Below are positions 7,584 through 42,316 of a DNA stretch of 47,762 nucleotides, one piece after another. This DNA comes from an uncultured Porphyromonadaceae bacterium (GTDB lineage: Bacteria > Bacteroidota > Bacteroidia > Bacteroidales > Muribaculaceae). Positions within the stretch are counted from its first letter, which is position 1. Every line of letters starts with the position of its first letter. The notes under the pieces were generated by a model that was not told where the DNA came from, ran no database searches, and saw nothing but the letters and a program-made list of their open reading frames with translations. The stretch lies in contig CAMWPX010000002.1 in assembly GCA_947176205.1 (NCBI GenBank), positions 1 through 47,762 on the forward strand, given 5' to 3'. Position numbers and translations under genes: made by a program.

Positions 7584-7620
7584 TTTAGATTCAATAGTTG
7601 CTATTTTAGTAAAAATAATT

Positions 7621-7628
7621 TATCTTTG
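7621..7628 (+). promoter_or_regulatory. Bacteroidetes-type -7 element TATCTTTG
   Basis: TAnnTTTG consensus; predicted start near 7634; more than 400 nt upstream of the next credible start codon (8052). Confidence 0.65.
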
Positions 7629-7633
7629 CCGAT

Positions 7634-7995
7634 AGATTGCGAAAACGTAGAGTGTACGGAGGTGCACGATATCAGGTTTCGTATATCTGAATACATATTA
7701 AAAGGCGTTTACCCGACGCGTTTGTACCTTGACGAATCCGAATCTCGCAAATTCCAATTCATCTCTTTCAAGGACACTCGCTATGGTAAATTTCTCGTCG
7801 ACTGCCGTAACCGGTTCAGTCGGGTTGCCACAGCGTCAACTTAAATGCGCTATAAGTGGCAATTCGTGTCAATGGTTTATCGCATAGTTGGCGTGGGGAT
7901 TTCCTAAGTGTTTGTTTGTAAAAGAGATGGGCTATGCGAGAGCCCGGGTTTGGAAAAACAGACTGAAGCGGATATTCTTCCCCACGTCTTTTATT
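7634..7995 (+). ncRNA. Candidate structured RNA (free ncRNA or long 5' leader)
   Basis: Follows a -7 element. Stems read by eye: TTGCCAC/GTGGCAA (7825-7831/7856-7862) with nested AGCG/CGCT; GGCGTGGGGA/TCCCCACGTC (7890-7899/7979-7988) followed by TTTTATTTTATC; GGGCT/AGCCC hairpin inside. No convincing ORF. Confidence 0.45.
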
Positions 7996-8051
7996 TTATC
8001 TCTCGATTATATGGGGGGGTAATCGACTATAAATCAAATCATTACACAACA

Positions 8052-8864
8052 ATGAAAAAGGTAATCCTTACAATGACCGTGCTGCTTGTCTTCGCCATGA
8101 GCGCTTTTGCAGCAAAAGAAACAGTACAAGTTAATCAATTTACCGGTGCAAGCAATGTATCTCAAGACGAACTCTCTATGGTACGTGATGCCGTAGTAAT
8201 GGCTTTTTCTGACAAAGGTCGTTTTATCATCTTAGATGCAGCAACCGGAGCTGATGGTGCTACTGCCAAATATGCCGTAGATGGCAAAGTAAATCCTATA
8301 GTTTACACTTACACTACTACCAAAAATGATGACGGCACTGTGTCTAAAACCTATACAGCACCCGTTTCCGTTACCCTTACAGTTGTAGACCTCGCTACCG
8401 GTGCAACAAAAAGCAGCGTAATAGTTGACAGCAATAAAGGATTCTTTGGCGACTTAAATCCAGTAGATATATTTAAGGAAGAAACAGCATATACTCAAGC
8501 TATTGCGCTAAAAAACGCCACTATGTATATGACAAAGACCGGTAAAAAATTGCCAAAATGGATTGAAGAGAACTTCCCCGCCACGGGTTCTATTCTTGAA
8601 CTGGATGAAGTCAAAGGTGATGATGTCAAAACTGCCTTCATTTCACTTGGCTCACAAGACGGCATGGTCAAAGGTCAGAAATTCACCGTAAAACTCAAGA
8701 CTACCGTGGCTAACCGCACACGCTTCAAAGAAATCGGTGAAGCTCAGTGTGAAGCCGTGGAAGGTGAAGATATATCATTGGTTAAAATCAAAAAAGGTGG
8801 CAAGGAAATATTCAAGGCTTACAGCGAAACTCCCAACAACCTGATTATCGAAACCAAGAAATAA
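8052..8864 (+). CDS. Exported CsgG/FlgO-like protein
   Basis: Start ATG 8052 (MKKVILTMTVLLVFAMSAFAAKE, signal peptide). The pattern QVNQFTGASNVSQDELSMVRDAVVMAFSDKGRFIILDA...AKYAVDGKV...SVTLTVVDLATGATKSS resembles CsgG/FlgO-type domains. Confidence 0.65.
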   Translation: MKKVILTMTVLLVFAMSAFAAKETVQVNQFTGASNVSQDELSMVRDAVVMAFSDKGRFIILDAATGADGATAKYAVDGKVNPIVYTYTTTKNDDGTVSKTYTAPVSVTLTVVDLATGATKSSVIVDSNKGFFGDLNPVDIFKEETAYTQAIALKNATMYMTKTGKKLPKWIEENFPATGSILELDEVKGDDVKTAFISLGSQDGMVKGQKFTVKLKTTVANRTRFKEIGEAQCEAVEGEDISLVKIKKGGKEIFKAYSETPNNLIIETKK

Positions 8865-8902
8865 TACATCAAGTTACACAGACTTTTACATATTGCCAGA
8901 GC

Positions 8903-8939
8903 CGTTATCAATCCTTGCAAACTGTGAGGATTGATAACG
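8903..8939 (+). repeat. Perfect 13-bp inverted repeat (intercistronic hairpin)
   Basis: CGTTATCAATCCT (8903-8915) - 11 nt - AGGATTGATAACG (8927-8939); no T tract on either side. Confidence 0.9.
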
Positions 8940-8970
8940 ACTTGAAATACACTTATTATTATCCTGAAAG

Positions 8971-10251
8971 ATGAAACGCCTTTGTTTAATATCCTTTTTA
9001 TGCCTGATATGCATCAATCCGCTGCTGGCTCAATTTGAATATTCACGTGAGATAATGCGTAGCGGCGGTTCCGACGAGCGGCCCACCCTGCGGGTCACCG
9101 TCATGGCTAACGATAAGAAAGAATTACAGGAAAAAGCCATATTGTCGGCACTCGATGCATATATATTTTATGGTATTGAGGGAGTGGGCACAGGCAAAGA
9201 ACTCATCAATGAGCGCGACCGTGACAAGCATTATGAATTTTTCCGTCGCGTATATAAAAACAAAATGAAATATGGTCTATATGCTGTCGACGTCAAAGAA
9301 ATCAGAAAAGCCAAGCGCAACGACGTCGGACTGCAGGAAGCCGTCTACACTCTTACGCTCAATAAAGCCGCATGGGACAAAGCTCTTGAAAACGAAGGTA
9401 TAATAAAGAAGGAAGTAGCCGTGGAGGTTGCTCCGGAAATAATGCCGTCAATTATGGTGGTACCGTATCGTAATGCCGGTGAGACATTCCGCGAGGTACT
9501 GGACAGAGCTCCGCATATACGAGTGGCTATCAGCGCCATACAGAATCTATTTGATGAGCATGGATATGAAACAGTTGACTTCATAGGGCTGCTTGAGTCA
9601 CGCGAACGCGACGGACAGTTTGCCCAGGACAATGCCGATTCGTTTGCAACACAGCTAATACGCTCCGGAGGTACTGACGTATACATTACCGTAGACGGAA
9701 CACGTTCGAGAATGGGCGGAGGCGAAGAACGTGTCGACCTGTTTCTTAAAGCCATGTACACCGCAAACGGCAAAATTCTTGCCAATAAAGACGCCTCAGC
9801 TCAAAGCCGTCACGGCATATCGAGTCTGTGCAAAGCAGCCATCCACCGGTGTGGCGATGACTTCATGCGTGTAATCAATGAGAAATTCAAGTCAATGACC
9901 GGCAGCGCTGACTCAGGCGGCAAGGGCGGGACGCAAAGTGCCAAACTCGTAGTAACCGTGGACGGCAATTCCACCATTGACCTTGACTCGGAAGTGGGCG
10001 ATGACATGTTTACCATCGGTGACTATATACGCCAGTACATCAAGAAGAATGCCCGCGGAGCCAAAATGGCAGGAACCACTCCGCTGCTTATGCAATATGA
10101 TACCATACTCATACCCACGCATAATAAAAAAGGGGAATCGGTGGAAGTAACGGACTTTGCCAATGCTCTTGTAAGATTCCTCCGCAGCAAAGGTGTGGGA
10201 TGCACCCGAATAATCGATGGTCTGACCATGCGAATCACCATATCTGACTGA
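8971..10251 (+). CDS. Exported protein, DUF6175-like / CsgG-FlgT-like architecture (tentative)
   Basis: Signal peptide MKRLCLISFLCLICINPLLAQ; IMPSIMVVPYRNAGETFREVLDRAPHIRVAISAIQNLFDEHGYETVDFIGLLE and GGTDVYITVDGTRSR...GKILANKDASAQS. Confidence 0.55.
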   Translation: MKRLCLISFLCLICINPLLAQFEYSREIMRSGGSDERPTLRVTVMANDKKELQEKAILSALDAYIFYGIEGVGTGKELINERDRDKHYEFFRRVYKNKMKYGLYAVDVKEIRKAKRNDVGLQEAVYTLTLNKAAWDKALENEGIIKKEVAVEVAPEIMPSIMVVPYRNAGETFREVLDRAPHIRVAISAIQNLFDEHGYETVDFIGLLESRERDGQFAQDNADSFATQLIRSGGTDVYITVDGTRSRMGGGEERVDLFLKAMYTANGKILANKDASAQSRHGISSLCKAAIHRCGDDFMRVINEKFKSMTGSADSGGKGGTQSAKLVVTVDGNSTIDLDSEVGDDMFTIGDYIRQYIKKNARGAKMAGTTPLLMQYDTILIPTHNKKGESVEVTDFANALVRFLRSKGVGCTRIIDGLTMRITISD

Positions 10252-10285
10252 CTTTAGTTTATCCCTTTACTTCACACACAGTACA

Positions 10286-11731
10286 ATGAAACTGACAGGT
10301 AAAATACTATGCCTGATAACAATATCGCTCTTCTCAGCGAATATTTCTGCAGGGAAAAAAGAAGAACCGGCGGCTCCCGAATGGACCCGCATGAAACCCG
10401 CAGTTACGGGTTATTATGTAGGTATAGGAAGTGAATCGGTCTATGCCAAGGATTATCGCGAAAAAGCCAAGGAAAAGGCTCTCGCCGACATGATGTCGGA
10501 TATCGAGATAAAAATAGCGCAGCAATCGATGCTCAACCGACTTGAAGAAAACGACAGTTATTCCGAAGAATTTATCAATAATATCCGCTCGGAATCACAG
10601 GCTTGGCTTGAAAACTATGAACTGACCGACTCATGGGCTGACAACGAACGCTACTATGTACAATACCGTCTTAACAAGGAGGAGTATGAACGGTTGAAAC
10701 GCGACCGACTGAAGAAAGCTGCCACATTGGCAGCCGATTACTGGGTAAAGGGTCATAATGCCCAGTTATCCGGACGGTTCCATGACGCGGTAGAAATGTA
10801 TGTGACCGGAATAAAAGCTATCGAACCGTTTGCCAATGAGCGGCTTGAAGCTACTGCCGACGGTCACACGGTAAACATTGCCGCCGAGCTGCTCAACTCT
10901 CTATCGGGCATGTTCAGCACACTCACATTCCACCCTACACCGCTCAATGTCACCGTCACCCCCTTTAATCACGAGGTAGTGCCTCTGACCGTACGCGTAC
11001 TTTCCGACGGTCGACCGGTAAAAGGGGTAACTCTTTCCGCAAAATTTTCAAAAGGCGAAGGACACATCACCGTCAACGGACGCACAGGTGACGAAGGCAG
11101 AGCCGAAATAACCCTCAGCGACATCTCGGCCAAACCCAAGCGTCGCGAACTCGTGATAAGCGCAAAACTGGAAGTATCGTCACTCTTTGACACCCCTGCC
11201 ACTCAACAACTCGGACAGCGCATACTGGCTTCCATCCAACCGTTATACGTACCCATTAACATGGAGGAAACCAATCTGAAAGCCTATCTTACCACGGATG
11301 ATGACAATTCATCACCGTTACTGCGGTCACTATCAGCTTACGTCGCCACGAATTATTTCGACTGGGTGGACGACAAACGTGACGCCGACCTGCAGATTCA
11401 CATCAGCACTTCGTTCAAAAAAGGCGGTGACGTACGTGGCGACCTATACGATATGACGGAATACTTCACCTCATGTCTGGTAACCATAATGGACCTCAAC
11501 GCACCCTCAGAACCGGTGGTGATACGCGTCAGCATTGACGATGCCCGCTCACTGTCACCAAAATCAGCTTCATTTACCGCCGCACGCACCAATGCCCAGC
11601 GTGAAATGGCAAAAAGCATGTGCCGCCAGCTCGACCGAAAACTTGCAGAAGCAAAATTTGAGCGTCGCAGCAAATCCACTCAAGAAGACTCCATGCAGAC
11701 TGAAGCCGACTTTATCCCTGAAGATTTTTAA
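10286..11731 (+). CDS. LPP20-like exported protein with Ig-like segment
   Basis: Signal peptide; PEWTRMKPAVTGYYVGIGSESVYAKDYREKAKEKALADMMSDIEIKIAQQS resembles LPP20; middle VTLSAKFSKGEGHITVNGRTGDEGRAEITLS is Ig-like. Confidence 0.6.
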   Translation: MKLTGKILCLITISLFSANISAGKKEEPAAPEWTRMKPAVTGYYVGIGSESVYAKDYREKAKEKALADMMSDIEIKIAQQSMLNRLEENDSYSEEFINNIRSESQAWLENYELTDSWADNERYYVQYRLNKEEYERLKRDRLKKAATLAADYWVKGHNAQLSGRFHDAVEMYVTGIKAIEPFANERLEATADGHTVNIAAELLNSLSGMFSTLTFHPTPLNVTVTPFNHEVVPLTVRVLSDGRPVKGVTLSAKFSKGEGHITVNGRTGDEGRAEITLSDISAKPKRRELVISAKLEVSSLFDTPATQQLGQRILASIQPLYVPINMEETNLKAYLTTDDDNSSPLLRSLSAYVATNYFDWVDDKRDADLQIHISTSFKKGGDVRGDLYDMTEYFTSCLVTIMDLNAPSEPVVIRVSIDDARSLSPKSASFTAARTNAQREMAKSMCRQLDRKLAEAKFERRSKSTQEDSMQTEADFIPEDF

Positions 11732-11770
11732 CCCATACATTACCATTTCTAACCCTTAACAATTTTGATT

Positions 11771-12310
11771 ATGAAATTTTATTCTATCCTTACCGTCGTA
11801 GCCATGACAGCAGCCCTCACATGCTGTTCTGCCGCTAAAAAGAACAAGACCAACAAAGGTGAACAGGAGATAACCCAACTATGTAACTACTATACTGATG
11901 AAACCACTTTCTACGGCAACGGTATAGCTGAAAGCACCGATATGCAGATGGCTAAAGACAAAGCCACTACATCAGCCCGCGCACAGATTTCTTCCACACT
12001 CAATATAGCTGTGGAAAACTTCGTGAAACGTTACCGCACCGACACCAACGATACTCTTGACCAAAAGACCGAAGACCGTCTGCAGACTCTTACCATACAG
12101 ACTCTCGCCAACTCCACCGTGTGCTGCGAGCGTATAGTAAGAGCGGAAAACGGCAAATACCGTGCTTACGTATCAGTATCTCTTCCCAAAGCCGTGGTTG
12201 CTGATGCCGCCAAAAAAGCTATGGCTGAGCAGAAAGAAGCTACACTTGACGACCGTGCCGGTGCTTTTGACAAAATTGTCGAACAGGAAATAGTCAAAGC
12301 CGGTAAATAA
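11771..12310 (+). CDS. LPP20-like lipoprotein
   Basis: MKFYSILTVVAMTAALTCCSAAKKNK signal with candidate lipobox; TTFYGNGIAESTDMQMAKDKATTSARAQISSTL resembles LPP20/FlgP. Confidence 0.6.
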   Translation: MKFYSILTVVAMTAALTCCSAAKKNKTNKGEQEITQLCNYYTDETTFYGNGIAESTDMQMAKDKATTSARAQISSTLNIAVENFVKRYRTDTNDTLDQKTEDRLQTLTIQTLANSTVCCERIVRAENGKYRAYVSVSLPKAVVADAAKKAMAEQKEATLDDRAGAFDKIVEQEIVKAGK

Positions 12311-13854
12311 TGACCCTCCGCAACAATTTACTCTACACCCTTGCAGCCGGCATATATTTACTTATGCCGGCGCAAGCTTTTGCTGACTGGGGCGACGAAT
12401 GGCGCGAGGAATTTAATCGTACCGCCCGCAGTCATCTGGAAGAATTCGAAAAAACGGCACGCGAGCATTTCAAGTTGATTCGCAATAATCTTGACGACGA
12501 TTTCCTGCGTACGCTTGACAGCATGTGGCATGACTATCGTGTCACAGCAGGCGAGGAACGCCCGCGCCGTCAGGAACCGGTCACGCCTCCTGTAGCTCCC
12601 GAGATTCCTGAAAACAAACCTGCCCCGGCTCCGATAGAACTCATTCCCGGTAGAATCAATCTGCCCGTAACACCCACTACCCCGGTAACACCTATTGACA
12701 TAAAATTTCCGGACAATACCACCCCGTCGCTTCCTGACATAAAGAAAGTGATGCAAGTGGACTTTTTCGGCAATAAATGTCAATTTATCCCTGTAGATTA
12801 CACCTATCTCAACGTCAGCCCTGACCAGACATCGATACGCTCATCCCTCGAACGTGTAATGAACGATGAGCAGACACCGCTGATTGTCAATGACTGTCTG
12901 CGATTACGCCAATCGCTCAACCTTCCTGACATTGGATATGTGTGGCTCGTTGAAGCGCTTGCTGAAGAAATTTGTCCCGGCAAACCTGATTCACAAGCAT
13001 TTCTTGCCACCACACTACTCAACCTTTCCGGTTACGATGTAAAGATAGGTTACAATCCCTCAGGTATAACCATGCTTTTCCCTACCGACGTACTCGTCTA
13101 TGCCACACCGCGACTCGAAATAAAGGGCAAGGATTTCTATGTGCGTAACCGGGCTATAAGCGATGCCGATTACATCCGCAGTTACGACAGCCAGTATTTC
13201 AAGAACGGTGTAGATGTACACCTCATTCCTGACCGTATGCCGGTGTTTCACAATGACGGACCTGAGCATGAATACTCATCGGACAAATGGCTACAGGAAC
13301 CGGCGTTCAAAATTCAGGTCAACGGTCCCCTTGTGGAATTTCTCGGCAAATATCCCCAGATATCATGGGAATATTACGCACAGGCTCCTTTGACTGAAGA
13401 ATTTCACAATAAAGTTATACCCACAGTAAAACAGCGAACCAAAGATGCCGGACTCAACACTTACGATGGCGTACGTAAAATTCTGAGTTTTCTGCATTAC
13501 GGATTCCCATATAAGGATGACGGTGCCCAATTCGGCTACGAGAAAGTTAATTTTCCCGATGAAAACTTCTACTTCCCGTATAACGATTGTGAAGACCGTT
13601 CGATACTTTTCGCCACTCTTGTACGTGAAATCTACGGACTTGACGTAGTGCTGCTTCACTATCCCAACCACCTCGCTACCGCCGTTAACTTCCGCGACCC
13701 CTCCGTGACCGGTGACTATATAGCCGTGGACGGAGTGAACTATGTGGTGTGTGACCCGACATATATAGGAGCACGCATAGGCATGAGTATGCCCCAATAT
13801 GCCTCGGTAGCTCCCGAAGTATTCAAAATCAAAATAACCGACAGTAACAAATAA
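12310..13854 (+). CDS. Exported transglutaminase-like protein
   Basis: Signal peptide; candidate triad NDCEDRSILFATLVREIYGLDVVLLHYPNHLATAVNF...VVCDPTYIGARIGMSMP (Cys-His-Asp). Start ATG overlaps the previous stop (TAATG). Confidence 0.7.
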   Translation: MTLRNNLLYTLAAGIYLLMPAQAFADWGDEWREEFNRTARSHLEEFEKTAREHFKLIRNNLDDDFLRTLDSMWHDYRVTAGEERPRRQEPVTPPVAPEIPENKPAPAPIELIPGRINLPVTPTTPVTPIDIKFPDNTTPSLPDIKKVMQVDFFGNKCQFIPVDYTYLNVSPDQTSIRSSLERVMNDEQTPLIVNDCLRLRQSLNLPDIGYVWLVEALAEEICPGKPDSQAFLATTLLNLSGYDVKIGYNPSGITMLFPTDVLVYATPRLEIKGKDFYVRNRAISDADYIRSYDSQYFKNGVDVHLIPDRMPVFHNDGPEHEYSSDKWLQEPAFKIQVNGPLVEFLGKYPQISWEYYAQAPLTEEFHNKVIPTVKQRTKDAGLNTYDGVRKILSFLHYGFPYKDDGAQFGYEKVNFPDENFYFPYNDCEDRSILFATLVREIYGLDVVLLHYPNHLATAVNFRDPSVTGDYIAVDGVNYVVCDPTYIGARIGMSMPQYASVAPEVFKIKITDSNK

Positions 13855-13861
13855 CCCAGCA

Positions 13862-15040
13862 ATGTCCGGCTCTTATAAAAGAATGCTGTGGGAGGCACTG
13901 ATAATAGCCCCGATAGCCACAATTCTGGCTATCGGAGCTTCATATCTGATACCGGGCGACATAACCACTCTCGAATCCGTAGCCCCGGAAACGAAAACAA
14001 GTGACTTCTGCTTCAGCGACTTTTATTCCATAGCTGTAAGCAATGACAAGACATACACCATTGACCCTAACATCACTATCGTAGCCGTAGACCGCTGCTC
14101 ACGCACGGAAATAGCCGCTGCCCTTGCCACGGCTGACTCAGCCGGAGCAAAAGCCATAGGCATAGACCTTATTTTAGAAAAACCGACAGTGGATTATGAC
14201 TCGCTGGCTGATTATCTCCGATACAACAAGAGGATAATACTACCCGTACTGCTTAAGGATTATGACGGTATATACTTCAACGATGCTGAGGCATCCTATT
14301 TCGACACATGGGAAATAAATGACAGCCGCCATGCATCCATCAATATCAACGGAAGCCACGAAGGATGCACCACCAGATATTTCAAACCGGAATTTGACCA
14401 CGTGGACTCACCCATCCCATCCATGGCTATGATGCTCGCCGAGACATATAAGCCCGGGAGCTTCGACCGTATCATGACTCGCGGTAACTCCATGGAGATG
14501 ATTGACTTCACAACCCATCAGTTCAATGTAATCCATGCAAAAGACCTTTATCGACACACTGACCTGCTGAAAAATAAAATAGTACTTTTGGGCTGTGTGG
14601 ACAATGCCGCTGACAAACACCGCATACCCCTTATCAACAATATGGCTGGCGTCATAATTCACGCCTACATAATCTCAACCATTATCAACGATGATTTCAT
14701 CGATGACTCGTCATGGCTCATCAACATGACTATAGCAGCGATAGTATGCCTCATAATAGTATTTCTCGGCGTACTTTTCCGCTCCACCGACTGGGGATGC
14801 ATGATGGTACGCATTCTTCAGATAGCCATACTCTTTACCATACTGTATATCGGCACGGCACTGTTCCGTACCTATCATTATAACCTCGATTTCGGCCCGA
14901 CCATACTCATATCTGTTCTCGGACTGCTCGTAATGGACATACTCATCGGACTTAACGCTATCATACGTCATATCATCATCCGGTTTCGTCGCCGCATATC
15001 ACCGACAACTCCGGATTGCGACCATACACCACAACAATAA
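13862..15040 (+). CDS. CHASE2-domain membrane protein without obvious output domain
   Basis: N-terminal TM; ITIVAVDRCSRTEIAAALATADSAGAKAIGIDLILEKP...KNKIVLLGCVDNAADKHRIPLINNMAGVIIHAYIISTIIND; several C-terminal hydrophobic helices; ends in a basic tail. Confidence 0.75.
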   Translation: MSGSYKRMLWEALIIAPIATILAIGASYLIPGDITTLESVAPETKTSDFCFSDFYSIAVSNDKTYTIDPNITIVAVDRCSRTEIAAALATADSAGAKAIGIDLILEKPTVDYDSLADYLRYNKRIILPVLLKDYDGIYFNDAEASYFDTWEINDSRHASININGSHEGCTTRYFKPEFDHVDSPIPSMAMMLAETYKPGSFDRIMTRGNSMEMIDFTTHQFNVIHAKDLYRHTDLLKNKIVLLGCVDNAADKHRIPLINNMAGVIIHAYIISTIINDDFIDDSSWLINMTIAAIVCLIIVFLGVLFRSTDWGCMMVRILQIAILFTILYIGTALFRTYHYNLDFGPTILISVLGLLVMDILIGLNAIIRHIIIRFRRRISPTTPDCDHTPQQ

Positions 15041-15049
15041 TTATCTCTC

Positions 15050-15871
15050 ATGAATACTACATTTCTCAAGACAATCATTGCCACCGTTGTAATCACTATT
15101 GCCGGCACTCAAATACCTCTCAATGCAAAATATAGGGCATATAATGTGGTCAATCATCCCAAAGTAGCATCAGGCAACCGCTTCATTGACATAACCAGAA
15201 ACATGAAGCTTAATGACAACAGCATAATCCGGCTCTCGGCTAACGACCAGCTTACCGTACGCATGTCATCGTTCAACGGCCCGGTATATAAATTAACGAC
15301 CCCTACACCGGCTAAAGGTACATCACTCAAAAACCTTATAGCCCAAAAACAAAAAGAAAAAATATCCACCGTAAGACAGGTGAACAAGACCATTGCTCAG
15401 GGGCTTGCCAGTCATACTGTAGCCAAGGATGCCTTTGACCGCGGAGGAGTATCACACATCACTACTAACTCGCAAGGAAGCATCACCACTTTGAAATATC
15501 TGCTCGGTCCGGAAGAAATCTGTCCCGACGAATTACCCGCTCCCATGATTAAGGTAACCCGTCGCACCGACCCTGACAATCTGTATCATTTTATACTCCG
15601 GTCGGTTAAACATGATGGATTATACGTCAATATGCTAAAAAAAGACTCCGACCCCAATCATATAGAGCTACTGTTTCCCGAACCGATTCTGATTACCTCC
15701 ACCGCTGACCGCGAACTTGACGATTTCTTATTTGAAATGCCTGACAAATATGATGCCGGCATGATTGTTATCGTATCTGACATGCCTTTCACCACCAAAG
15801 ATATAGCGCACGAACTCAACGTCACTACTCAAAACATCCACCGCAATTACCACTACCAGATTATACGCTGA
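15050..15871 (+). CDS. Exported hypothetical protein
   Basis: Signal peptide MNTTFLKTIIATVVITIAGTQIPLNAKYRAY; co-directional with the preceding gene with a 9-nt gap; no family recognised. Confidence 0.65.
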   Translation: MNTTFLKTIIATVVITIAGTQIPLNAKYRAYNVVNHPKVASGNRFIDITRNMKLNDNSIIRLSANDQLTVRMSSFNGPVYKLTTPTPAKGTSLKNLIAQKQKEKISTVRQVNKTIAQGLASHTVAKDAFDRGGVSHITTNSQGSITTLKYLLGPEEICPDELPAPMIKVTRRTDPDNLYHFILRSVKHDGLYVNMLKKDSDPNHIELLFPEPILITSTADRELDDFLFEMPDKYDAGMIVIVSDMPFTTKDIAHELNVTTQNIHRNYHYQIIR

Positions 15872-15995
15872 TCTGACATTACGTGACAACCATATATCAG
15901 CGAAATGTAAGCTATCGGACCCGGTGATTTATGTATTATCAATGAAAGACATAGGAAAATCAGGCGCGTGTTGCTTAGGATTGCGGAGAAATTAG

Positions 15996-29701: not shown

Positions 29702-31714
29702 TTAGAATTCGATGTTGTTGACACGAACGACCCAAGGAAGCACCTCGCACTCAACGGTAAGATAAACATCACCTTTTTCATTAGGAGTATCTGGCGTGGG
29801 AGGTTCGGGGTCATTTTCAGAGATACGCGGGTGACCAAGCTGCTTTATGTTGGTAACAGCGAGTTTATATACGTTGTTACGAACCACAGCAAATTCCATG
29901 GGCCCCATCTGGCTGGCTACGTTATTGTCGTTATGACGGTTCCAATAATAGTAATAGCAGTAGTAGCCCCAGCCGTCATCAACATCATTACTTGCCTGAT
30001 AGATAGTGATACCGCTACCGGTAGCGGCCTTCTTGAACGCAAGGAGAGCTGCATCAGATATACGCCCGTCTTTATCCCACTGATTCCACAGATAATTGGC
30101 ACTGCCGGTATCTTCAGCGAGTTCATCATAATCCTCACCTGTACCGCCATTGCCGAACACAGCTTTATAAAGAGTGTTTGTACGGTTCCATTCCTGGGTA
30201 TCGGCACTATAAGATACAGAGATAGCCTGCTGGCGTATATTGGGCCATGAACAATAAAGGATATTGCTATAAGCGTAGATTATCGGGCGGGTTTTAGATG
30301 AAACAAGTACATCGCCAACGTTTGCAATAGCGTTATAGAGAGCCTGGTCATATTCATCGGCGGAGTTTTTAAGTTCTTCAGTAACCTCCATCTTACCCTT
30401 GAATACCACACCGGTAGTGATACCGTTAACCTGATTGCGAGCTTCACCGGGGATGGTGTTTTCAGTTACATAACGCCATACTTTGTAATCACCGTATTTC
30501 TTATCGGTATCCCAATCTGGATTGTCATCATTACCATTTTTAAGTACATCTTCGATGCGTGACAGATACCAGCGGTTAGTCGTTCCGGTGTTATCACATA
30601 CACCGTTATCATCAAAGAAAGAGTAATTGAAATACTTGCTGAACTGGGTCTCAACACCATCCATCTTTTCCTGAGCGTATGCGTCAACCACGTAGTTACC
30701 TGTTAAACCGGGAACGGGAAGACCGTTGTTATCGGTATACCATGGCATTTCAGAGCCACAAAGTATAGAATTAGTAGGAGTGCCGTTAGCAGAAACCCTA
30801 CGGAGGAAGTAGAATGAATTGCTCATGTTGACAAGAAGCATCTTATTAAGCTTGATATTCACATGAACATCCCCGATAGTACCATCCTCATTCACATGGC
30901 GAACCACAGGATAAGTATTGGCAGGCAGATTGAATTCAGCATTAGCAGCAATATCCTTACTACCGTCACGGAAATCAAAACGGGCGCATGCGCGTTCTAC
31001 CTTCACAGCACCTTTACCGGCACCGCCGTTATTGATTTCTTTGTCTTCGCCTTCAGAGTTCACTCCGGAAAGATTAAACGGATTAGTCTCAACACTGAAC
31101 GGATTCCAGTCATCGATAGATTTAGGAAGAGTACGGGTAGCGATTTCAGAGTTGGACATCAGGAAGTAATTGTTTGCCCAGATGGATTCACCTTCACCGA
31201 GCTGACACATGGCATTATACCAATCGGCAGCCACGACGTTCTCACTAAATACCTCAAGAAGGTCACTGGTAGGATTACAGAATACAAACACATGGATATC
31301 TGTGTGGGCACCGCCGGTCAAGCCTGCATAATAATCTGCAAGGTCGCTCTTGCTTATTTTACCTTTAGCAGAGTAGCTTTTACCGTTATTAATCGAAACT
31401 ATGCTGTTATCAACCAAAGCATGAGCTATATACTCATTGTTGGACTGCTTGGCAAGCACTATAAGCATTGAAGACACGCGGTTTTCAGCATCACTACCTA
31501 CTTCACTTCCACCGGTAGAAGAGCCGGGACCGGATGTAAAGCTACGCGAGCCTTCGGGCATAGAAACGACAACCTGCATGTAAACACCCGAGCCATCAGC
31601 AACAGTATTACCATTGCCATCGGGATTTCCGGGATTATCTACAACCACATCGTCGGAGCAGGATGCAAACATAGCTAATGAAAGCAGACCTACGAAAAGA
31701 GATTTAATTTTCAT
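29702..31714 (-). CDS. Mfa1-family major fimbrial subunit (module B)
   Basis: MKIKSLFVGLLSLAMFASCSDD lipoprotein signal; GYYCYYYYWNRHNDNN...VVRNNVYKLAVTNIKQLGHP Mfa1 C-terminal domain. Confidence 0.85.
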   Translation of the reverse strand: MKIKSLFVGLLSLAMFASCSDDVVVDNPGNPDGNGNTVADGSGVYMQVVVSMPEGSRSFTSGPGSSTGGSEVGSDAENRVSSMLIVLAKQSNNEYIAHALVDNSIVSINNGKSYSAKGKISKSDLADYYAGLTGGAHTDIHVFVFCNPTSDLLEVFSENVVAADWYNAMCQLGEGESIWANNYFLMSNSEIATRTLPKSIDDWNPFSVETNPFNLSGVNSEGEDKEINNGGAGKGAVKVERACARFDFRDGSKDIAANAEFNLPANTYPVVRHVNEDGTIGDVHVNIKLNKMLLVNMSNSFYFLRRVSANGTPTNSILCGSEMPWYTDNNGLPVPGLTGNYVVDAYAQEKMDGVETQFSKYFNYSFFDDNGVCDNTGTTNRWYLSRIEDVLKNGNDDNPDWDTDKKYGDYKVWRYVTENTIPGEARNQVNGITTGVVFKGKMEVTEELKNSADEYDQALYNAIANVGDVLVSSKTRPIIYAYSNILYCSWPNIRQQAISVSYSADTQEWNRTNTLYKAVFGNGGTGEDYDELAEDTGSANYLWNQWDKDGRISDAALLAFKKAATGSGITIYQASNDVDDGWGYYCYYYYWNRHNDNNVASQMGPMEFAVVRNNVYKLAVTNIKQLGHPRISENDPEPPTPDTPNEKGDVYLTVECEVLPWVVRVNNIEF

Positions 31715-31734
31715 AAATGTGTGATTGATAAAAA
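31695..31734 (-). repeat. 40-bp exact repeat, copy B (5' leader/first codons of Mfa1-like gene)
   Basis: AAAAGAGATTTAATTTTCATAAATGTGTGATTGATAAAAA, identical to 40034-40073. Confidence 0.95.
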
Positions 31735-31942
31735 TTATTGTATTGTATTTTATTTCGAAGATGAATTCATTACCGACAAAACAGCCATAATCAGATACTT
31801 CATAAAAAAGAATCTGATGTGCGGCTCTTTAGGTTTAACGTAGTGATACTATAAAAATTACATAAGGCTGACAGAAAAATTCCCCTAATGAAAGAATTAA
31901 TCCGTCGGCCTATGTAGAATGTTTTCTCCGCACCGGAAAATA

Positions 31943-34900
31943 TTACTGATAAATCAATTTTATCGGGAGCGCATCAGATGAGTATGCAACGGAGGTTGAA
32001 CTATATTGATGTGTTCTATCGGTCCACCCTCCTAGTGAATTATAGGCGTAGGGATTGAAAACGAGGGTACGATAGTTGATGTCCCATGAAGCATAATCAG
32101 GATATGGTTTATTCAAATGTCCGTCAGATGTGCCGGGTTTCGTCACGGGCTGCTTAATCCAATAAAGTCCTCCGGGATCACGATAAAGATTATATGTGTA
32201 GGGACGGTTGCGGTTACCTGTTCCTACCAACACCTCACGCAAATTACCATAAGTGAGCGAACCCACACCGGGATCGGCAATTGGAGCGTTGTCGGTGCCG
32301 TAAGGAGCAGTGCACGCTCGACGTATCTGCCCTTCGGAACCGAGGGGAAAGATAATATTTCTACCATCGTTTTCATCGTAGACAACACATGCACGCACTC
32401 CGCGCTCATCATCATTTCCAAGATTATCAAAGTCGGTATAGCCACAAGCCTTTTTGTAATTAGACTGCGTAGTCGTGGCTCCGTCGGCATATACAATGCC
32501 ATAACCGAAGTCGCAGTTAGCGAGCAGGCTCTGATAATTTTCAGCTGTAGGAACGGAGAATTTCTCATTGTCACGGAATCCACCTACAGCCGTCCATGTA
32601 TCGGCCCAATGTTTCGTGTAACGTTCCTGTGACGCTCCATAATTAACCCATGCATAGCCTTGAATCGTGTCCCATTTAGCAGTTCGGCTATCATCGACCG
32701 TATTTGATGCGGTGATATGAGTCGTTAACAACTTAACACCGGTAACCGACTGAAGCCAGCCACAGCCATTCTCGATATTCTTTTCCCTGATACTATAGTT
32801 GTATTGACATCTCTTAAGAAGAGAGCCAACTGACAGCGGGCTTCTGGTCAAAGCTACAGGCACGGAAGTTTCATCAGTGGGTGCAACAGTGTTAGGACTG
32901 TTGTCGCCTGCTGCAGATGTGGCATACACGTTGTAGCAACTCCAATTGGCATCACCGAGCCGGACACCCTTATGATAGCCCTGCCTTACGAAGATGAGGT
33001 GGAAGCAGTTATAGTCGTGATATTCAACTTTTATAACGCCTGAACGTGTATGGTCATCACTGATTATCCCACTTGGCTTGTACTTAAACACAATATCGTC
33101 GTCAGTAACACCTTTAATAGTGTCACCCTTCACACCATTGCGGTCGTAAAGCTCAATGAAGCTCTCGGTCTGACGGTCGACGTATGCCCGCCAGGGACCG
33201 TCGGACGTGAATGTCACGAAATAGTCAGCATCAGCCTGTGGCAGAACCATCAGTTTAATTTCAAACTCGTCATCTCTACCGGCATCGCGGTAAATGGCCT
33301 TGGGATTCTCGATTCGCGGCACTTGATAAATCGTGGCCATGCGCTCGGTTTCCCATTCTCCCTCTTCGTTTTTGAAATCTATCATCTTATCGCCTGAACC
33401 GGTCTTTTGCCATAACGTGAAGCGTACCTTAGCATAACGGTAATAGGCATTGAACGGGTTATTTCCGGTAAAGTCAGAGGAAGGAACCATTTCCTTATTT
33501 CTGGTGTACATAGGGATTTTCATATGTACGGATTTGTCAATGGGATCGTAGGAGGTATTTGCACCGGTGAGAGAGTATTCGTTTACGGCGAGATTATTAG
33601 CCTTATAATACCATTGGAGATACGAATTGGCATGACTACCATAGCCATTGGCATCCAACCCACCGGTCTGAGCCTGAACTTCGGCATCAGTACCGATAAC
33701 GTCGGCAGTATTGGGTCGAAGCGAGAGGAACCCGACGTAATTTCCACCTGTGTAGGGATCTCCTTTGTAAGTGTCCTTGTTGTATTTGACAGGTGTATAG
33801 ATGTCAAGTGAGCCCGTGTTCCACGCAAATCCGTATTCGACTGCTTGAGAACCTACAAATTCATCCGGACTGCAGTTGTGTTTTCGGTCCCATGGAATCC
33901 AGTTATTCTCGACGATTTCAGCCTTGACGTAGAATTGAGACTTATCCCATTCCTCAGGAAGAATCACACGGGCGGGGAAATCCATCCGCTGATCGTAGAG
34001 ATAAGAGATATAGTAAGGCTCGGGAGTAATCAGTGTGGGAGTATACTCCTTGTAGGAAATATGCCAGTCGGCTTCATTGGCCCAACCGCGGAATTTAAGA
34101 GTGAGCTTGTAGTGATAGTTGCGTTCAGCATTGTAATCGTATGTGCTGTTTTTACCGAGCATGAAGCGATAACGAATCGGACCCTGAGATACTTTATCTT
34201 TGTGGCGACTATCATAGTATCCTACGACTTCTACATAGGTTCCGTAAAGTCGTGAATCCTTATAGTCAGGACCATCAGCAAGACTATCAATGGGAGTACC
34301 GACTGCATCGGGGTCCTGACGCTTGTCCATCGATGCCAGACCGGGATAGTTTCCCTGCATATTCTCATAAAAATAGAGCGAGGGGTCGCTTTCCGTGTGT
34401 TCAGTCTGACCGCCATAAGGTAATCCCTTTGAAAGAACGATATTCCATTTCTCGTGGTCGGCGTCGTTTTCTTCACCGGCATTGTAGTAAGTGAACGATT
34501 CACCTCTTTTAATGAGCTGGTCAGCATCAGAAGGCGCATTTACCTCACCTAAAGCACAACTTGCCGGTATATCATGTATAGTCACGCTCTTGATATATAT
34601 ACGTACGTTATCCTTAAGGTCGGAGGCATCAAACGACACGGTAACCTTAGAAACCAAACGCTTAATCCACGAATGGAGCGAAACCGCACTTTGATTTATC
34701 ACAAGCATAGGAGCATCGAATCCGGCAGATGTTTCAGCCGACGCCGGAGACGTCATAGTAAAATAGCCGAACATCTGATTATCAAGACTGACATTGGTCT
34801 GCCAGTCAAATCGTTTGCCGCGCAAATCGCTTATCGTGGTACAGTCCACATCGGTGAGGTCTACATTAGCCACAGCAAACATCTTATACCGTCCGTATGG

Positions 34901-35362
34901 AATATGAGTGAGCCTGAAAGTAGCGCTTGGTGTCTTCTCGCCAGTTCCGCCTATAGTTCCATCCGCGGGTCCAACGTTTTGATTACCGGACGGCGTCACC
35001 GTTTCGGCATCGACGGGAACGTCTGAATTACCTGCCTGGTCAATATTGAAATTTGACCCGGGCAAGGTGTAACCTGTCTCACTGTCATAGAGACGCACCT
35101 TTTCATATAGTCCGGCCTCGGAGCCATCGGCATTAATTTTATAAATAACAATCCAAAGTTCATCCACCCTGTCAACAGCATTGCCGGCTGAACGTGAACC
35201 GAGAGCTGGCTCGAGCGAATGAAATTCAATCAGAACATTGAGATTTGCCTCCCCTTCGCCTATCACGGTAGTGTCATAGAGCAACTCATCCACACACGCA
35301 GTGAAGATTAGAACCGGGAGTAAGAATAGGAAGGATATATAGCGAGAGAATTTCATTGTCAT
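31943..35362 (-). CDS. Large fimbrial lipoprotein, probable tip/adhesin subunit
   Basis: Lipobox IFTACVDE; ELWIVIYKINADGSEAGLYEKVRLYDSETG fimbrillin-like N terminus; BACON-like segment near DDHTRSGVIKVEYHDYNCFHLIFVRQGYH; 1139 aa. Confidence 0.65.
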   Translation of the reverse strand: MTMKFSRYISFLFLLPVLIFTACVDELLYDTTVIGEGEANLNVLIEFHSLEPALGSRSAGNAVDRVDELWIVIYKINADGSEAGLYEKVRLYDSETGYTLPGSNFNIDQAGNSDVPVDAETVTPSGNQNVGPADGTIGGTGEKTPSATFRLTHIPYGRYKMFAVANVDLTDVDCTTISDLRGKRFDWQTNVSLDNQMFGYFTMTSPASAETSAGFDAPMLVINQSAVSLHSWIKRLVSKVTVSFDASDLKDNVRIYIKSVTIHDIPASCALGEVNAPSDADQLIKRGESFTYYNAGEENDADHEKWNIVLSKGLPYGGQTEHTESDPSLYFYENMQGNYPGLASMDKRQDPDAVGTPIDSLADGPDYKDSRLYGTYVEVVGYYDSRHKDKVSQGPIRYRFMLGKNSTYDYNAERNYHYKLTLKFRGWANEADWHISYKEYTPTLITPEPYYISYLYDQRMDFPARVILPEEWDKSQFYVKAEIVENNWIPWDRKHNCSPDEFVGSQAVEYGFAWNTGSLDIYTPVKYNKDTYKGDPYTGGNYVGFLSLRPNTADVIGTDAEVQAQTGGLDANGYGSHANSYLQWYYKANNLAVNEYSLTGANTSYDPIDKSVHMKIPMYTRNKEMVPSSDFTGNNPFNAYYRYAKVRFTLWQKTGSGDKMIDFKNEEGEWETERMATIYQVPRIENPKAIYRDAGRDDEFEIKLMVLPQADADYFVTFTSDGPWRAYVDRQTESFIELYDRNGVKGDTIKGVTDDDIVFKYKPSGIISDDHTRSGVIKVEYHDYNCFHLIFVRQGYHKGVRLGDANWSCYNVYATSAAGDNSPNTVAPTDETSVPVALTRSPLSVGSLLKRCQYNYSIREKNIENGCGWLQSVTGVKLLTTHITASNTVDDSRTAKWDTIQGYAWVNYGASQERYTKHWADTWTAVGGFRDNEKFSVPTAENYQSLLANCDFGYGIVYADGATTTQSNYKKACGYTDFDNLGNDDERGVRACVVYDENDGRNIIFPLGSEGQIRRACTAPYGTDNAPIADPGVGSLTYGNLREVLVGTGNRNRPYTYNLYRDPGGLYWIKQPVTKPGTSDGHLNKPYPDYASWDINYRTLVFNPYAYNSLGGWTDRTHQYSSTSVAYSSDALPIKLIYQ

Positions 35363-35377
35363 GATAATGGTTTATTA

Positions 35378-36712
35378 TTAATCGCGGTCAAGTCCGAAGA
35401 ATGGCTCAAGCACACACGAACGGTAAGGCACCACATCGACCTGCAGATTGAGTTTGGCTCCGAAATCATTGACCGACAAAGTATAGATATGATTTCTCAG
35501 TATGTTTTGTCCGAAAGAAAAATTGACACCATTGTATGAGGTCATAGGCACGTAAAAATCAAGGTATTCCATCGTGGTGTCCGCCTTGCGATTAGCGATT
35601 GTTACGTGAAACACAGGCATACCCTCATCTACATTGTTGTTAGGATGACCTATCCTCTGCTCCGGCACAAAACCGATGAACACATTACCTGTACGTTGCG
35701 ACGACGGAGTTATAGTCCATGACTCCGGTATAGTGCCCAACTTATATGTCTCTGCGAGGGTCAGATTGCTATTTTCCTGAAAGATATTGGGAGTATGAAC
35801 CTGCTGTCCGTCCTCGTAATTGAGAGCTCCGGCAGGAAGTTGTCTTGCCTGAGACTGCGAACTGAGAAATTCTACAGAAGTAATGCAAGGATATCCGTAA
35901 TCATCTTTTTCCTGAATATTATCCACGACCCTGACTTTTGCAAGCGCGCGGAGAAGATTGACCTCACCAAGATATATACGTCCCCCCGGAGTGCTATAGA
36001 CAAGGTCAGCTTCTGTAATAGCAAACATATTAGTACCGAACATAGGGACATGATTCTTCTTATTGCTATAAATAGTCTCCGCATCTGGTCCGCCATCGGC
36101 ATTATATATATCGCTCATAGGAAAGTTCCACTCTGCAAGTTGCGCTATGACTGTGGGGTAAGTCTGACCGGTAATGGCATCCCACTTGGCGGTTGCACTT
36201 GCGCCGGACTGCAAGCAGTTAGCCAAAAGCAAGAAGCGGAAAGAAATTATAGACTTACCTTCGCGTGTTATCTCATATCCGTCAAGCACATCTTTAAGGT
36301 CATCCTTACGTATCATGAGATTGACGAAATAACTACCCTTACCACCCGCAACAATATTGATGCGCGCATCATCGGAATCAAGCAGATTCGTAAGCTTATA
36401 CACGAGCTTTTCATCGGAAGTAGAACCGGCTATTTTAGCAAAGACAAATATTCCGAGATCCCTTATATCGATACCGTCCTCGAAGTCACGAAATTCGCTG
36501 TCGGTCTCGCCATGACCCTGACTGTCGGCGCGGGAGCGTGTAATCGCACTGCCAGTCACCATATTGAAACTGAGCGACATGCATTCACCCGACACGACAT
36601 ATGTAGGGTCAGGGGCAGGAACTGGTTCATCTGACGAGGAACACGCTGCCAGCAACAACAAGGTGGGTATGAGGAAGATATATATATATTTCATCTGATT
36701 CACTGGAATCAT
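35378..36712 (-). CDS. Fimbrillin-type lipoprotein (Mfa-like accessory subunit, module A)
   Basis: Lipobox LLAACSSS; SLSFNMVTGSAITRSRADSQGHGETDSEFRDFEDGIDIRDLGIFVFAK. Confidence 0.75.
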   Translation of the reverse strand: MIPVNQMKYIYIFLIPTLLLLAACSSSDEPVPAPDPTYVVSGECMSLSFNMVTGSAITRSRADSQGHGETDSEFRDFEDGIDIRDLGIFVFAKIAGSTSDEKLVYKLTNLLDSDDARINIVAGGKGSYFVNLMIRKDDLKDVLDGYEITREGKSIISFRFLLLANCLQSGASATAKWDAITGQTYPTVIAQLAEWNFPMSDIYNADGGPDAETIYSNKKNHVPMFGTNMFAITEADLVYSTPGGRIYLGEVNLLRALAKVRVVDNIQEKDDYGYPCITSVEFLSSQSQARQLPAGALNYEDGQQVHTPNIFQENSNLTLAETYKLGTIPESWTITPSSQRTGNVFIGFVPEQRIGHPNNNVDEGMPVFHVTIANRKADTTMEYLDFYVPMTSYNGVNFSFGQNILRNHIYTLSVNDFGAKLNLQVDVVPYRSCVLEPFFGLDRD

Positions 36713-36721
36713 TAAAATCTA

Positions 36722-37768
36722 TCAGTATATAGGGTCAGACTGCGGAGGCACAACCGCCCAACCGCATATATAAATACCGGCTGCAGTATACCATCCCAAA
36801 TTATTATCAATAAAGAATAATGCCGAGTAATCGCTGCGACGATCGAGATACTCTTGGTCAGAATATTGGTTGAAACGGTTACCCTTGGCATATATGAAAT
36901 AGTCGATAAGAGGAATATGGATTATGCGTACACCATCAGTATTACGTATAATGTCAAGATAAGCATCGCCGTCAACCATAAGCCGGCTCACGGACATTTC
37001 ATAAAGAAGTGAGGAACGCACGGGCTGGTCATCATCGCCATCGGCACGTCCCTTAGTTGTCTCACCGTAGAGTACGCTCCACGGCGTATAAGTTACAGCG
37101 GGGCTATCGTCCCTGACTGCGTTGTCCCACGCCAGCCATGAATCGGCGTAGGTGAATGTAACGGTAAAATCACTTTCTTTTAGAGCGGTACCGTCTTCAT
37201 TTACGAGCATCACTGCGATGTCGTTGGTGTCCTTTATCAACGGTATGGTTACTGTAGTAATAGAAGGAGCGTTAGGTTTGATTTTATGCTCGACTCCTGA
37301 TTTCTTGCCGTGAAATAAGGCCTTGAAATGCGACGAACTTACGTTCAATCCGTCTTTTTCTATAGTATTAAGTTTCATTTCGAGCTCCTCCATACTTACC
37401 GGTGTGTAAGTGGCAAGAGAGAAATCATCATTGCCATCCAGTCCGCACCATGCCACGAAGTCATACGTTCCTCCTCCGAGTGGTGTTTCCAGCATGAAAT
37501 CTGGGTCTTTAAGTCTATCGCCCGAAGCTGAACCGGTCCAGACTAAATTTCCGGCCTGGTCAAAAGCCCACACATTGACACTGTGTACCTGCGCGGCAAA
37601 TGCCTCACCACGGTCAAGAGTGTAGTTGAACTGAAACTTCACATTGAGCTGCGCGGGACATTCAGGCAGGTCGTCATATATAAGCGAGGAGCAACCTGTC
37701 ATTGTCAGACCAAAGGACAGCACCATGATAATCAGACTGAATATGTTGCGGATAGTATTTTGAAGCAT
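36722..37768 (-). CDS. FimB/Mfa2 family fimbrial anchor subunit (module A)
   Basis: Lipobox MTGCSSL; NVKFQFNYTLDRGEAFAAQVHSVNVWAFDQAGNLVWTGSA...GGGTYDFVAWCGLDG. Confidence 0.85.
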   Translation of the reverse strand: MLQNTIRNIFSLIIMVLSFGLTMTGCSSLIYDDLPECPAQLNVKFQFNYTLDRGEAFAAQVHSVNVWAFDQAGNLVWTGSASGDRLKDPDFMLETPLGGGTYDFVAWCGLDGNDDFSLATYTPVSMEELEMKLNTIEKDGLNVSSSHFKALFHGKKSGVEHKIKPNAPSITTVTIPLIKDTNDIAVMLVNEDGTALKESDFTVTFTYADSWLAWDNAVRDDSPAVTYTPWSVLYGETTKGRADGDDDQPVRSSLLYEMSVSRLMVDGDAYLDIIRNTDGVRIIHIPLIDYFIYAKGNRFNQYSDQEYLDRRSDYSALFFIDNNLGWYTAAGIYICGWAVVPPQSDPIY

Positions 37769-37788
37769 AAATGATTAGGATTAAAATA

Positions 37789-37816
37789 CCCCGGAGGGAG
37801 GGATTTCCCTCCGGGG
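37789..37816 (-). terminator. Hairpin downstream of Mfa1-like gene, module A
   Basis: CCCCGGAGGG (37789-37798) - 8 nt - CCCTCCGGGG (37807-37816); minus strand continues TATTTTAATCC. Confidence 0.75.
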
Positions 37817-37863
37817 TTATCTTTGGATGTGCACTAAATTCTAATAGCGCGAGGAATAGGATG

Positions 37864-40053
37864 TTAGAGTTTAACGTTCTGCGTAGGAACTACAGCCCAT
37901 TTCAGAATATTCACGGAGTAAGCCATGAAATAATCTTCAGTGTTGGCCGGGGGAACGATAGGATTATCATCGTCACCGATACCGGAAGCAAGACCCACAA
38001 TTTCGGTAACATTTACCTGATAGCTGTGGTTACGAACCATACCGAAGTCACCTACACGCACACGGTTCCAATCGATTTTGGCAGCGTTCTTCTGTTCATT
38101 ACCCTGACGGTACCAACCGAAGTGTTTAACGGGGATTGAGTAATAGGCATGACCTGTAGTGTAGTAGTAGGAGAGACCTACCTGACGCATAAGCGTTACG
38201 TTAGCATCAGTCAGATGAATCTGAGTGTTCTCATCAAAAGTTGCAGCGTTATCGGGGACAATCTCCATATAACCTCCACTGGTCACGATGTAGATACCAT
38301 CAGCATCTTCAGCGCTGGTAAACTGGAGTGTGCGAGCATTGTTCTGAAGCTTCAACACGGTAGTAGTATTGCCGTCATAATTCTGCTTAACTTTATCGGA
38401 TATTTCAGAAACTGTAAGCGCATTCACCATCATGTCTATATCAGTGGGGTTAGCTATAGTCAGACGGGTATATTCGCCGGCATCCTTTTCTTCGTCGGTC
38501 TGAGATTTTCTGTAAAGAATAGTTGTCTGAGCAAAGAAACGAAGGAGCATTGACTCGCCACCGTCTATAGCGCTCTTAACACCATTAGAGGTATTGAAAT
38601 AGATGTAAGGACGGTCTTCTGTCACTTCCGGACTGGGCACATTACCGGAAAGATAAGTGTAGAAACTGGTGCCTTCGGGAAGAGTAGTGCCGTCAAGATT
38701 GAGGTTGTACTGACCTACATAAATTACGGAAGCAACAGCGGCATTGGGATTCTTGGAGTTAAGCGCACGATAACCCACGGTAGTCTCACGGAAATACTGG
38801 GGCGCAGTCTCCGTAGCGGCAAAGCCTATGTTGTTACCATTAGTAGCAAGTTCGTTATATGAGATATACTTCTGATTAACAGTAATATCCTTGAGATCGG
38901 AAGATACCTCGGGATATTCCTGTGTAAAGTAAGCGGGTGACATTCCCCAGAATGAACGGTGAAGGTCAGGATTGTTCCATGCCCAACGGTTACCGGCTGA
39001 AAGTACATTGGCACCGTCGGAATAATCCCAGCTGTTGTTACCCTCCACATAAGTAGCAGGATTTACACGGGCATTTAGCTGACCGAAAGTATAGTTATCG
39101 GCAAGAATTCCACCTAACTCAGATTCCTGACGGAACGATTTGATAACATAAGAGCTGTTTGATTCAGCATTTACAGCCCAATACTGAGGTACGAACTGGA
39201 GAGTAACAAGCTTGGTAGTGGTGCTTGAAGTTGCTGCAGGATTTTCTGCGGTCAGGTCATAGACGCGGGTAGCTGTAACGTAATTAGTGGGGTCAACAGC
39301 ATTGAAAGCAAGCTTGGTTGCATAACGCTCCACATATATATTAAGAGTGTTATTAGAACCAAGAGCGTCTTCGGCAGCCTTTTCGGTAGTATATAAATAC
39401 GTTTCAGGAATAGGTACCGCAACCTGAGGCAGTCCGTCATTAGGGGCAAGACCGGTAGTAGCTCCTGCACTGCGGGGATAGTACACAGAGTTACTCATAG
39501 CAAAGTACTTCGTCGCACCGCCACCTATCGTACTCCATGTGGCTGTACGCGATATGGTCTGAATCACATTGAGAGGATTCTGGAGCGTAGCGGGCGAAAT
39601 CGGGTTGATGTAGCAGATAACCTGAGCAGGCTTTTTCTCACCTTTCTTAACGCTTACCGGAACTACCGACTTATAAGAGCGTTCGATAGTTAAATCGTCA
39701 TTAATATCTTCATTAAGATGAGAGTCATCGAGTTCAACAGGAACGATGTCACCGACTACGTTACCATCTTCGTCATAGAATACGAAATAGGCGTTGTTAA
39801 TCTGATTCTCAGAATTCGGAGTGCCATCTTCAAAATCAGTACCGGGAGAAGGGGTACCATTGTCACCAGCGGCGCGGGACTCGGTTCCGTCACCGGCGAT
39901 TTTCATACTGACGTAGAATGTCTGGTCTGCTTCCAGAATAGGATTCCCGTTACTGTCGGGATTCTGAATAGCTTCTGCAACCACATCGTCGTCAGAACAA
40001 GACGCAAACATAGCTAAAGAAAGCAGTCCTGCAAAAAGAGATTTAATTTTCAT
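37864..40053 (-). CDS. Mfa1-family major fimbrial subunit (module A)
   Basis: MKIKSLFAGLLSLAMFASCSDDD signal; GWYRQGN...FGMVRNHSYQVNVTEIVGLASG Mfa1-type C-terminal domain. Confidence 0.85.
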   Translation of the reverse strand: MKIKSLFAGLLSLAMFASCSDDDVVAEAIQNPDSNGNPILEADQTFYVSMKIAGDGTESRAAGDNGTPSPGTDFEDGTPNSENQINNAYFVFYDEDGNVVGDIVPVELDDSHLNEDINDDLTIERSYKSVVPVSVKKGEKKPAQVICYINPISPATLQNPLNVIQTISRTATWSTIGGGATKYFAMSNSVYYPRSAGATTGLAPNDGLPQVAVPIPETYLYTTEKAAEDALGSNNTLNIYVERYATKLAFNAVDPTNYVTATRVYDLTAENPAATSSTTTKLVTLQFVPQYWAVNAESNSSYVIKSFRQESELGGILADNYTFGQLNARVNPATYVEGNNSWDYSDGANVLSAGNRWAWNNPDLHRSFWGMSPAYFTQEYPEVSSDLKDITVNQKYISYNELATNGNNIGFAATETAPQYFRETTVGYRALNSKNPNAAVASVIYVGQYNLNLDGTTLPEGTSFYTYLSGNVPSPEVTEDRPYIYFNTSNGVKSAIDGGESMLLRFFAQTTILYRKSQTDEEKDAGEYTRLTIANPTDIDMMVNALTVSEISDKVKQNYDGNTTTVLKLQNNARTLQFTSAEDADGIYIVTSGGYMEIVPDNAATFDENTQIHLTDANVTLMRQVGLSYYYTTGHAYYSIPVKHFGWYRQGNEQKNAAKIDWNRVRVGDFGMVRNHSYQVNVTEIVGLASGIGDDDNPIVPPANTEDYFMAYSVNILKWAVVPTQNVKL

Positions 40054-40073
40054 AAATGTGTGATTGATAAAAA
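40034..40073 (-). repeat. 40-bp exact repeat, copy A (5' leader/first codons of Mfa1-like gene)
   Basis: Identical to 31695-31734. Confidence 0.95.
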
Positions 40074-40085
40074 AATTATTGTTAG

Positions 40086-41564: not shown

Positions 41565-41626
41565 TATATCAACAGAAGTAAATGTATTCGGAATAGAGAT
41601 TAGATTATTAAAGGTAACTAATGATA

Positions 41627-42205: not shown

Positions 42206-42316
42206 AAGTATAGAATATGATATACGATTCATTAATTTCAACATACTATAGCACAATTACATACAATATCAAGACACAAATTCTTAACGCTAAGGAATGT
42301 GCAAAAATTCAGTGTG

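Follow-up and report, generated by a model that had tools for sequence, protein, structure and literature searches.

Seven adjacent genes, here called A to G, occupy positions 8052–15871 on the + strand of the analysed window (the whole stretch of DNA, 47.8 kb long), and together they look like a real, uncharacterised cell-surface module. Judged by sequence profiles, A, C and D are exported and belong to families whose members assemble into outer-membrane-associated rings and disks. The grouping is more than chance, given synteny in dozens of genomes and given that each of the three LPP20 matches in this genome lies in a cluster with an E gene. An open-access literature search found no paper on such a gene set.

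Gene content and layout of the locus

The features of the locus are as follows:

7598–7628, + strand: candidate promoter of the Bacteroidales type, TTG-N20-TATCTTTG (pattern match, no mapped start)
8052–8864, + strand: gene A, exported protein resembling FlgT (middle/C-terminal part) and the CsgG/LpoB type (family profile)
8903–8939, + strand: 17-bp hairpin in the A–B gap (fold z = -5.3)
8971–10251, + strand: gene B, exported DUF6175 protein (Pfam, 3e-37)
10286–11731, + strand: gene C, LPP20-family domain at the N-terminus followed by an Ig-like segment (Pfam LPP20, 1.7e-8)
11771–12310, + strand: gene D, LPP20-family lipoprotein (profile match to LPP20 structure 5ok8, 1.8e-6)
12310–13854, + strand: gene E, predicted exported transglutaminase-like cysteine enzyme (triad, model, Foldseek)
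13862–15040, + strand: gene F, stand-alone CHASE2 membrane protein (Pfam CHASE2, 8e-20)
15050–15871, + strand: gene G, exported F partner carrying a small beta domain at its N-terminus (synteny, model)

The genes are co-directional and tightly spaced, as the first-pass annotation had described, with intergenic gaps from A to G of 106, 34, 39, -1, 7 and 9 nt, the -1 being the TAATG overlap of D and E at 12308–12312. The motif TTG-N17-22-TAnnTTTG has two + strand matches in the whole window, one at 7598 upstream of A and one at 15971 before pyrB; because these sole two matches flank A–G, the genes are framed as one unit, and this promoter layout supports the view that A to G are probably one transcription unit. 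A transcript starting at the candidate promoter would have about 420 nt of leader ahead of A (7628–8051), in which Rfam gives no match; a tRNA is the sole RNA element found. Horizontal gain marked by odd composition was rejected, since the GC content of the A–G genes (0.42–0.49) brackets the 0.46 of the window. Signal peptides were called by eye and with a hydropathy scan, and the earlier count of six exported products plus the membrane protein F holds, the signal peptides of A, B and D being clear and those of C, E and G having weaker h-regions. In the Pfam scan of single sequences, B, C and F pass the cut-offs, and nothing meaningful comes up for A, E or G; the family placement of A, C, D and E comes from profiles built from relatives.

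Two FlgT structures, 3w1e and 8z5n, are matched by the family profile of A (E-values between 5e-4 and 6e-4), and members of the family match LpoB (3e-11), CsgG (2e-6) and, in 8 of 18, FlgT_C, which backs the FlgT/CsgG type for a protein first read as CsgG/FlgO-like; A itself has no CsgG domain by Pfam. For B, proposed as DUF6175/FlgT-like, the DUF6175 half stands and the FlgT likeness went unconfirmed, the PDB search of B being empty. B lies directly 3' of A in 10/14 relatives among the family loci. The hairpin between them is a single-copy sequence in the genome, and long A–B gaps in relatives also carry hairpins, unrelated in sequence to that of the window (z of -5.8 in L065 and -8.3 in L063, with a weaker one of -1.6 in L070). 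In addition, L065 has two copies of A and L043 has three. The hairpins and the extra copies suggest that A may be needed in excess over B–G, as would fit an oligomeric protein.

The profile of C matches the LPP20-family structure 4kzs (6e-4), so that of the earlier reading of C the LPP20 part is upheld by Pfam and profile, while the Ig segment (Big_1) scores 20.2 against a Pfam cut-off of 34.9. Similarly, the single-sequence LPP20 score of D is under the Pfam cut-off (20.5 bits vs 25.9); its naming as an LPP20-like lipoprotein is supported by the profile match to 5ok8 and by Cys19, at the lipobox position, which is invariant in 17 relatives.

By modelled fold and near-invariant triad, E is a member of the transglutaminase-like superfamily. 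Among the aligned homologues the triad consists of C427 (72/72), H454 (72/72) and D482 (69/72, with Glu in the other three); the AlphaFold2 model has a pLDDT of 83, and its Foldseek neighbours are putative cysteine proteases, LapG (prob 0.97) and PNGase, with E-values >0.001 and a consistent class. The family profile of E gives weak Transglut_core matches in Pfam, and no Peptidase_C93 (LapG) match is among the families listed. Profiles, fold and Cys-His-Asp triad thus agree with the transglutaminase-like label given at first; as such a periplasmic protein, E need not be a protease. E is present in 68/247 order genomes (~28%), 43/297 phylum genomes (~15%) and 11/34 congeners, and this patchiness points to an accessory-type function. 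Two further E loci exist in this genome, C48 with the order E-F-G-DUF4384-caspase and C8 with the order D-LPP20-PEGA-E. Some E homologues of about 870–900 aa (L013–L017, L019, L023–L025 and others) have an extra C-terminal region that is propeller-like by eye; an E–CHASE2 fusion, suspected from these ORFs, was rejected after one extension was scanned and gave no Pfam family. In other families of the phylum, shorter homologues of E, about 400 aa long (L096–L102), lack LPP20 or CHASE2 neighbours.

F was rightly read as a CHASE2 membrane protein, given its Pfam match and its hydrophobic segments, which the hydropathy scan places at 8–26 and 286–368, and also at 257–275 inside CHASE2. The protein has one plus three TM segments and ends about 24 aa past the last one, with no cytoplasmic output domain (kinase, cyclase). 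In distant Bacteroidota the CHASE2 proteins near E are longer; that of L083 retains a Pfam guanylate cyclase, and in L091 and L088 a cyclase was read by eye. From these longer, cyclase-bearing homologues it appears that the F of the window has lost its output domain, and its partner is thus probably in the periplasm, be it E, G or the caspase exported in sister loci, rather than a cytoplasmic second messenger. G lies directly 3' of F in 22/28 family loci. Its N-terminal beta domain, at about residues 28–91, is modelled at a pLDDT of about 95 and resembles the cell-surface anchoring domain 5ix9 in Foldseek (prob 1.0, E 0.18), the sequence search of this domain against the PDB being empty. G has no Pfam FecR match; hhalign gives a probability of 33% to the L083 gene, which is itself FecR-like by eye. 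At L056 (5137–9057), one protein combines CHASE2, Sel1-type repeats and a caspase domain, and a G gene is next to it.

Conservation of the gene neighbourhood

The neighbourhood set comprised 120 loci from genus, family, order and phylum genomes, picked by E, F or A matches, so that the counts express adjacency given presence and are not genome-wide rates. Gene order is conserved in modular blocks, and the exact seven-gene order is rare: the join occurs in the window genome (G000) and in one congener (G253), which lacks B and has three copies of A. For instance, A-B-C-D(-E) recurs in L063, L065 and L068, and also in L034, L067 and L072, where other or unlabelled genes take the place of C; E-F-G recurs in L002, L043, L060, L071, L081 and L082. 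A second layout, F-G-WD40-caspase-DUF4384-D-E, is found in about eight genera, and sister loci carry caspase, DUF4384, WD40 and PEGA proteins as extras. E is within 9 kb of F in 17/28 family loci, and, among order-level loci that do not belong to the family, D is within 6 kb of E in 16/36. Two loci from other families of this phylum, L083 and L091, also have CHASE2 near E; in the former, of a distant family, a FecR-like gene (by eye), a CHASE2-cyclase gene and E are adjacent. The E genes of other families in the order have a nearby F in 0/36 cases, so E cannot always depend on CHASE2.

Across the family, A and F co-occur in 11/149 genomes vs 4.6 expected (Fisher p = 0.001), an excess that genome incompleteness may inflate, and in G305, G271 and G249 the A–D and E–G blocks are found apart, at separate loci. 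The pyrB-pyrI-flavin reductase block is present in 12/12 congeners checked (glyA in 10/12), and A–G is not beside it. The first-pass idea of an envelope machine is largely backed in its general form, by exported and membrane families and by modular synteny; the neighbourhood check proposed with it is passed in this modular form.

Likeness to known systems

The same families, FlgT-type A and LPP20-type C and D, occur in the Vibrio FlgO/FlgP/FlgT H-ring and the H. pylori LPP20 operon (HP1454, HP1456). It has been reported that LPP20 structurally resembles FlgP and FlgT, that LPP20-family proteins of H. pylori interact with the disk protein FlgP, and that deletion of hp1456 (LPP20) gives no motor or bacitracin-sensitivity phenotype (PMC11756786). 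Unlike in these systems, the FlgT- and LPP20-type genes here are joined to an enzyme and a sensor, and the genome has no FliF match. Searches of this genome, 92% complete, returned no match to the YscJ_FliF family and none to the CsgG family; on these grounds a flagellum or FliF-type secretion and curli were rejected, in agreement with the initial observation that the window has neither curli nor flagellar genes. A known anti-phage defence system was also rejected, as PADLOC gives a weak Csm5 match to C alone.

Meanwhile, sets of CHASE2 and FecR sensors share with A–G a CHASE2 membrane protein gene next to the gene of an exported protein whose N-terminus forms a small beta domain, and the distant Bacteroidota member retains its guanylate cyclase. 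Examples are the BiofilmReg operon of Burkholderia, a CHASE2 plus FecR sensor gene set (PMC5192318), and the CyaD1 CHASE2-cyclase pathway of Sinorhizobium, which has a FecR-domain target (PMC5498481). In contrast to these sets, F lacks a kinase or cyclase, Pfam FecR does not recognise G, and LPP20 and transglutaminase-like genes are linked.

The likeness to LapD–LapG–LapA, a system of regulated periplasmic proteolysis of an adhesin, lies in an exported transglutaminase-fold cysteine enzyme (E, with a DCED motif), a membrane sensor and the anchoring-type beta domain of G. LapG carries the DCED motif. However, A–G has no c-di-GMP receptor or large adhesin in the operon, and E is outside the LapG Pfam family; the analogy between E and LapG is one of fold class only.

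Proposed function and competing readings

The best explanation, held tentatively and with somewhat less than even confidence, is that A–G is a modular cell-envelope system of Bacteroidota, transcribed as one unit, in which F/G and E would control or remodel an assembly made of A–D. A–D would form an outer-membrane-anchored periplasmic assembly, F and G may be a sensor pair for an envelope condition, and E, under their direct or indirect control, would cleave or modify a component of the assembly or another surface protein; the system would then be a periplasmic analogue of LapD–LapG–LapA, a surface or ring component being modified under the control of a signal. This explanation draws on the adjacency counts for F–G, E–F, D–E and A–B, the co-occurrence of A and F, the adjacency of FecR-like, CHASE2-cyclase and E genes in L083, the CHASE2-caspase fusion in L056, the triad of E with LapG among its nearest folds, the likeness of the G domain to 5ix9, the promoter layout and the interaction of H. 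pylori LPP20-family proteins with FlgP. Against it stand the position of E outside the Pfam LapG family, the Foldseek E-values of E and G (>0.001), the E genes with no nearby F (0/36), the shorter E homologues lacking LPP20 neighbours and the hp1456 deletion with no motor or bacitracin-sensitivity effect (PMC11756786). A more specific form, in which the CHASE2/G pair, its cyclase lost, passes its signal inside the envelope to a protease of transglutaminase fold that remodels an LPP20/FlgT-type outer-membrane ring, as an undescribed system found throughout Bacteroidota, is rather doubtful.

That A–D and E–G are two independent modules merely joined in this lineage, with no common function, is somewhat unlikely; the restriction of the seven-gene join to G000 and, without B, G253, the separate blocks in three genomes and the absence of A–G from the pyrB site in 12 congeners fit such a view, but D–E adjacency is widespread, D connects both blocks, and A and F co-occur above expectation, if perhaps with an excess inflated by genome incompleteness. 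It is unlikely that the locus is a sensor-gated proteolytic stress or cell-death module, in which the CHASE2 pair, the transglutaminase-like enzyme and the sister-locus caspase make a protease cascade that envelope damage sets off, with the LPP20 proteins detecting the damage: caspase (Peptidase_C14) genes do neighbour E, D and DUF4384 at many loci, including the C48 paralogue of this genome, the L056 fusion joins CHASE2 to a caspase, and cyanobacterial CHASE2-metacaspase proteins are on record (PMC3501461), yet a caspase is missing from the A–G operon of the window, PADLOC recognises no system there, and the caspases appear by eye to be exported, which cytoplasmic death effectors are not.

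An export or assembly machine for a curli- or fimbria-like surface polymer, with E as its processing enzyme, is very unlikely, because no polymer subunit is recognised within the operon, A has no CsgG domain by Pfam and the genome has no CsgG match, although A-family members have CsgG-type similarity, PEGA proteins adjoin in other loci (one with weak outer-membrane-barrel similarity) and the window has a fimbrillin cluster at another place. This cluster, on the - strand at 29702–42256, encodes two Fimbrillin_C proteins with DUF4906 and DUF3868 proteins and is consistent with an Mfa/FimA-type fimbria.

The A–G set ties LPP20, DUF6175, CHASE2 and an unnamed transglutaminase-like enzyme family, all four poorly understood, into one testable unit. 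If the preferred mechanism of signal-gated modification is true, Bacteroidota would have a signal-controlled surface-remodelling system, and a CHASE2 sensor would be seen to work without cytoplasmic output.
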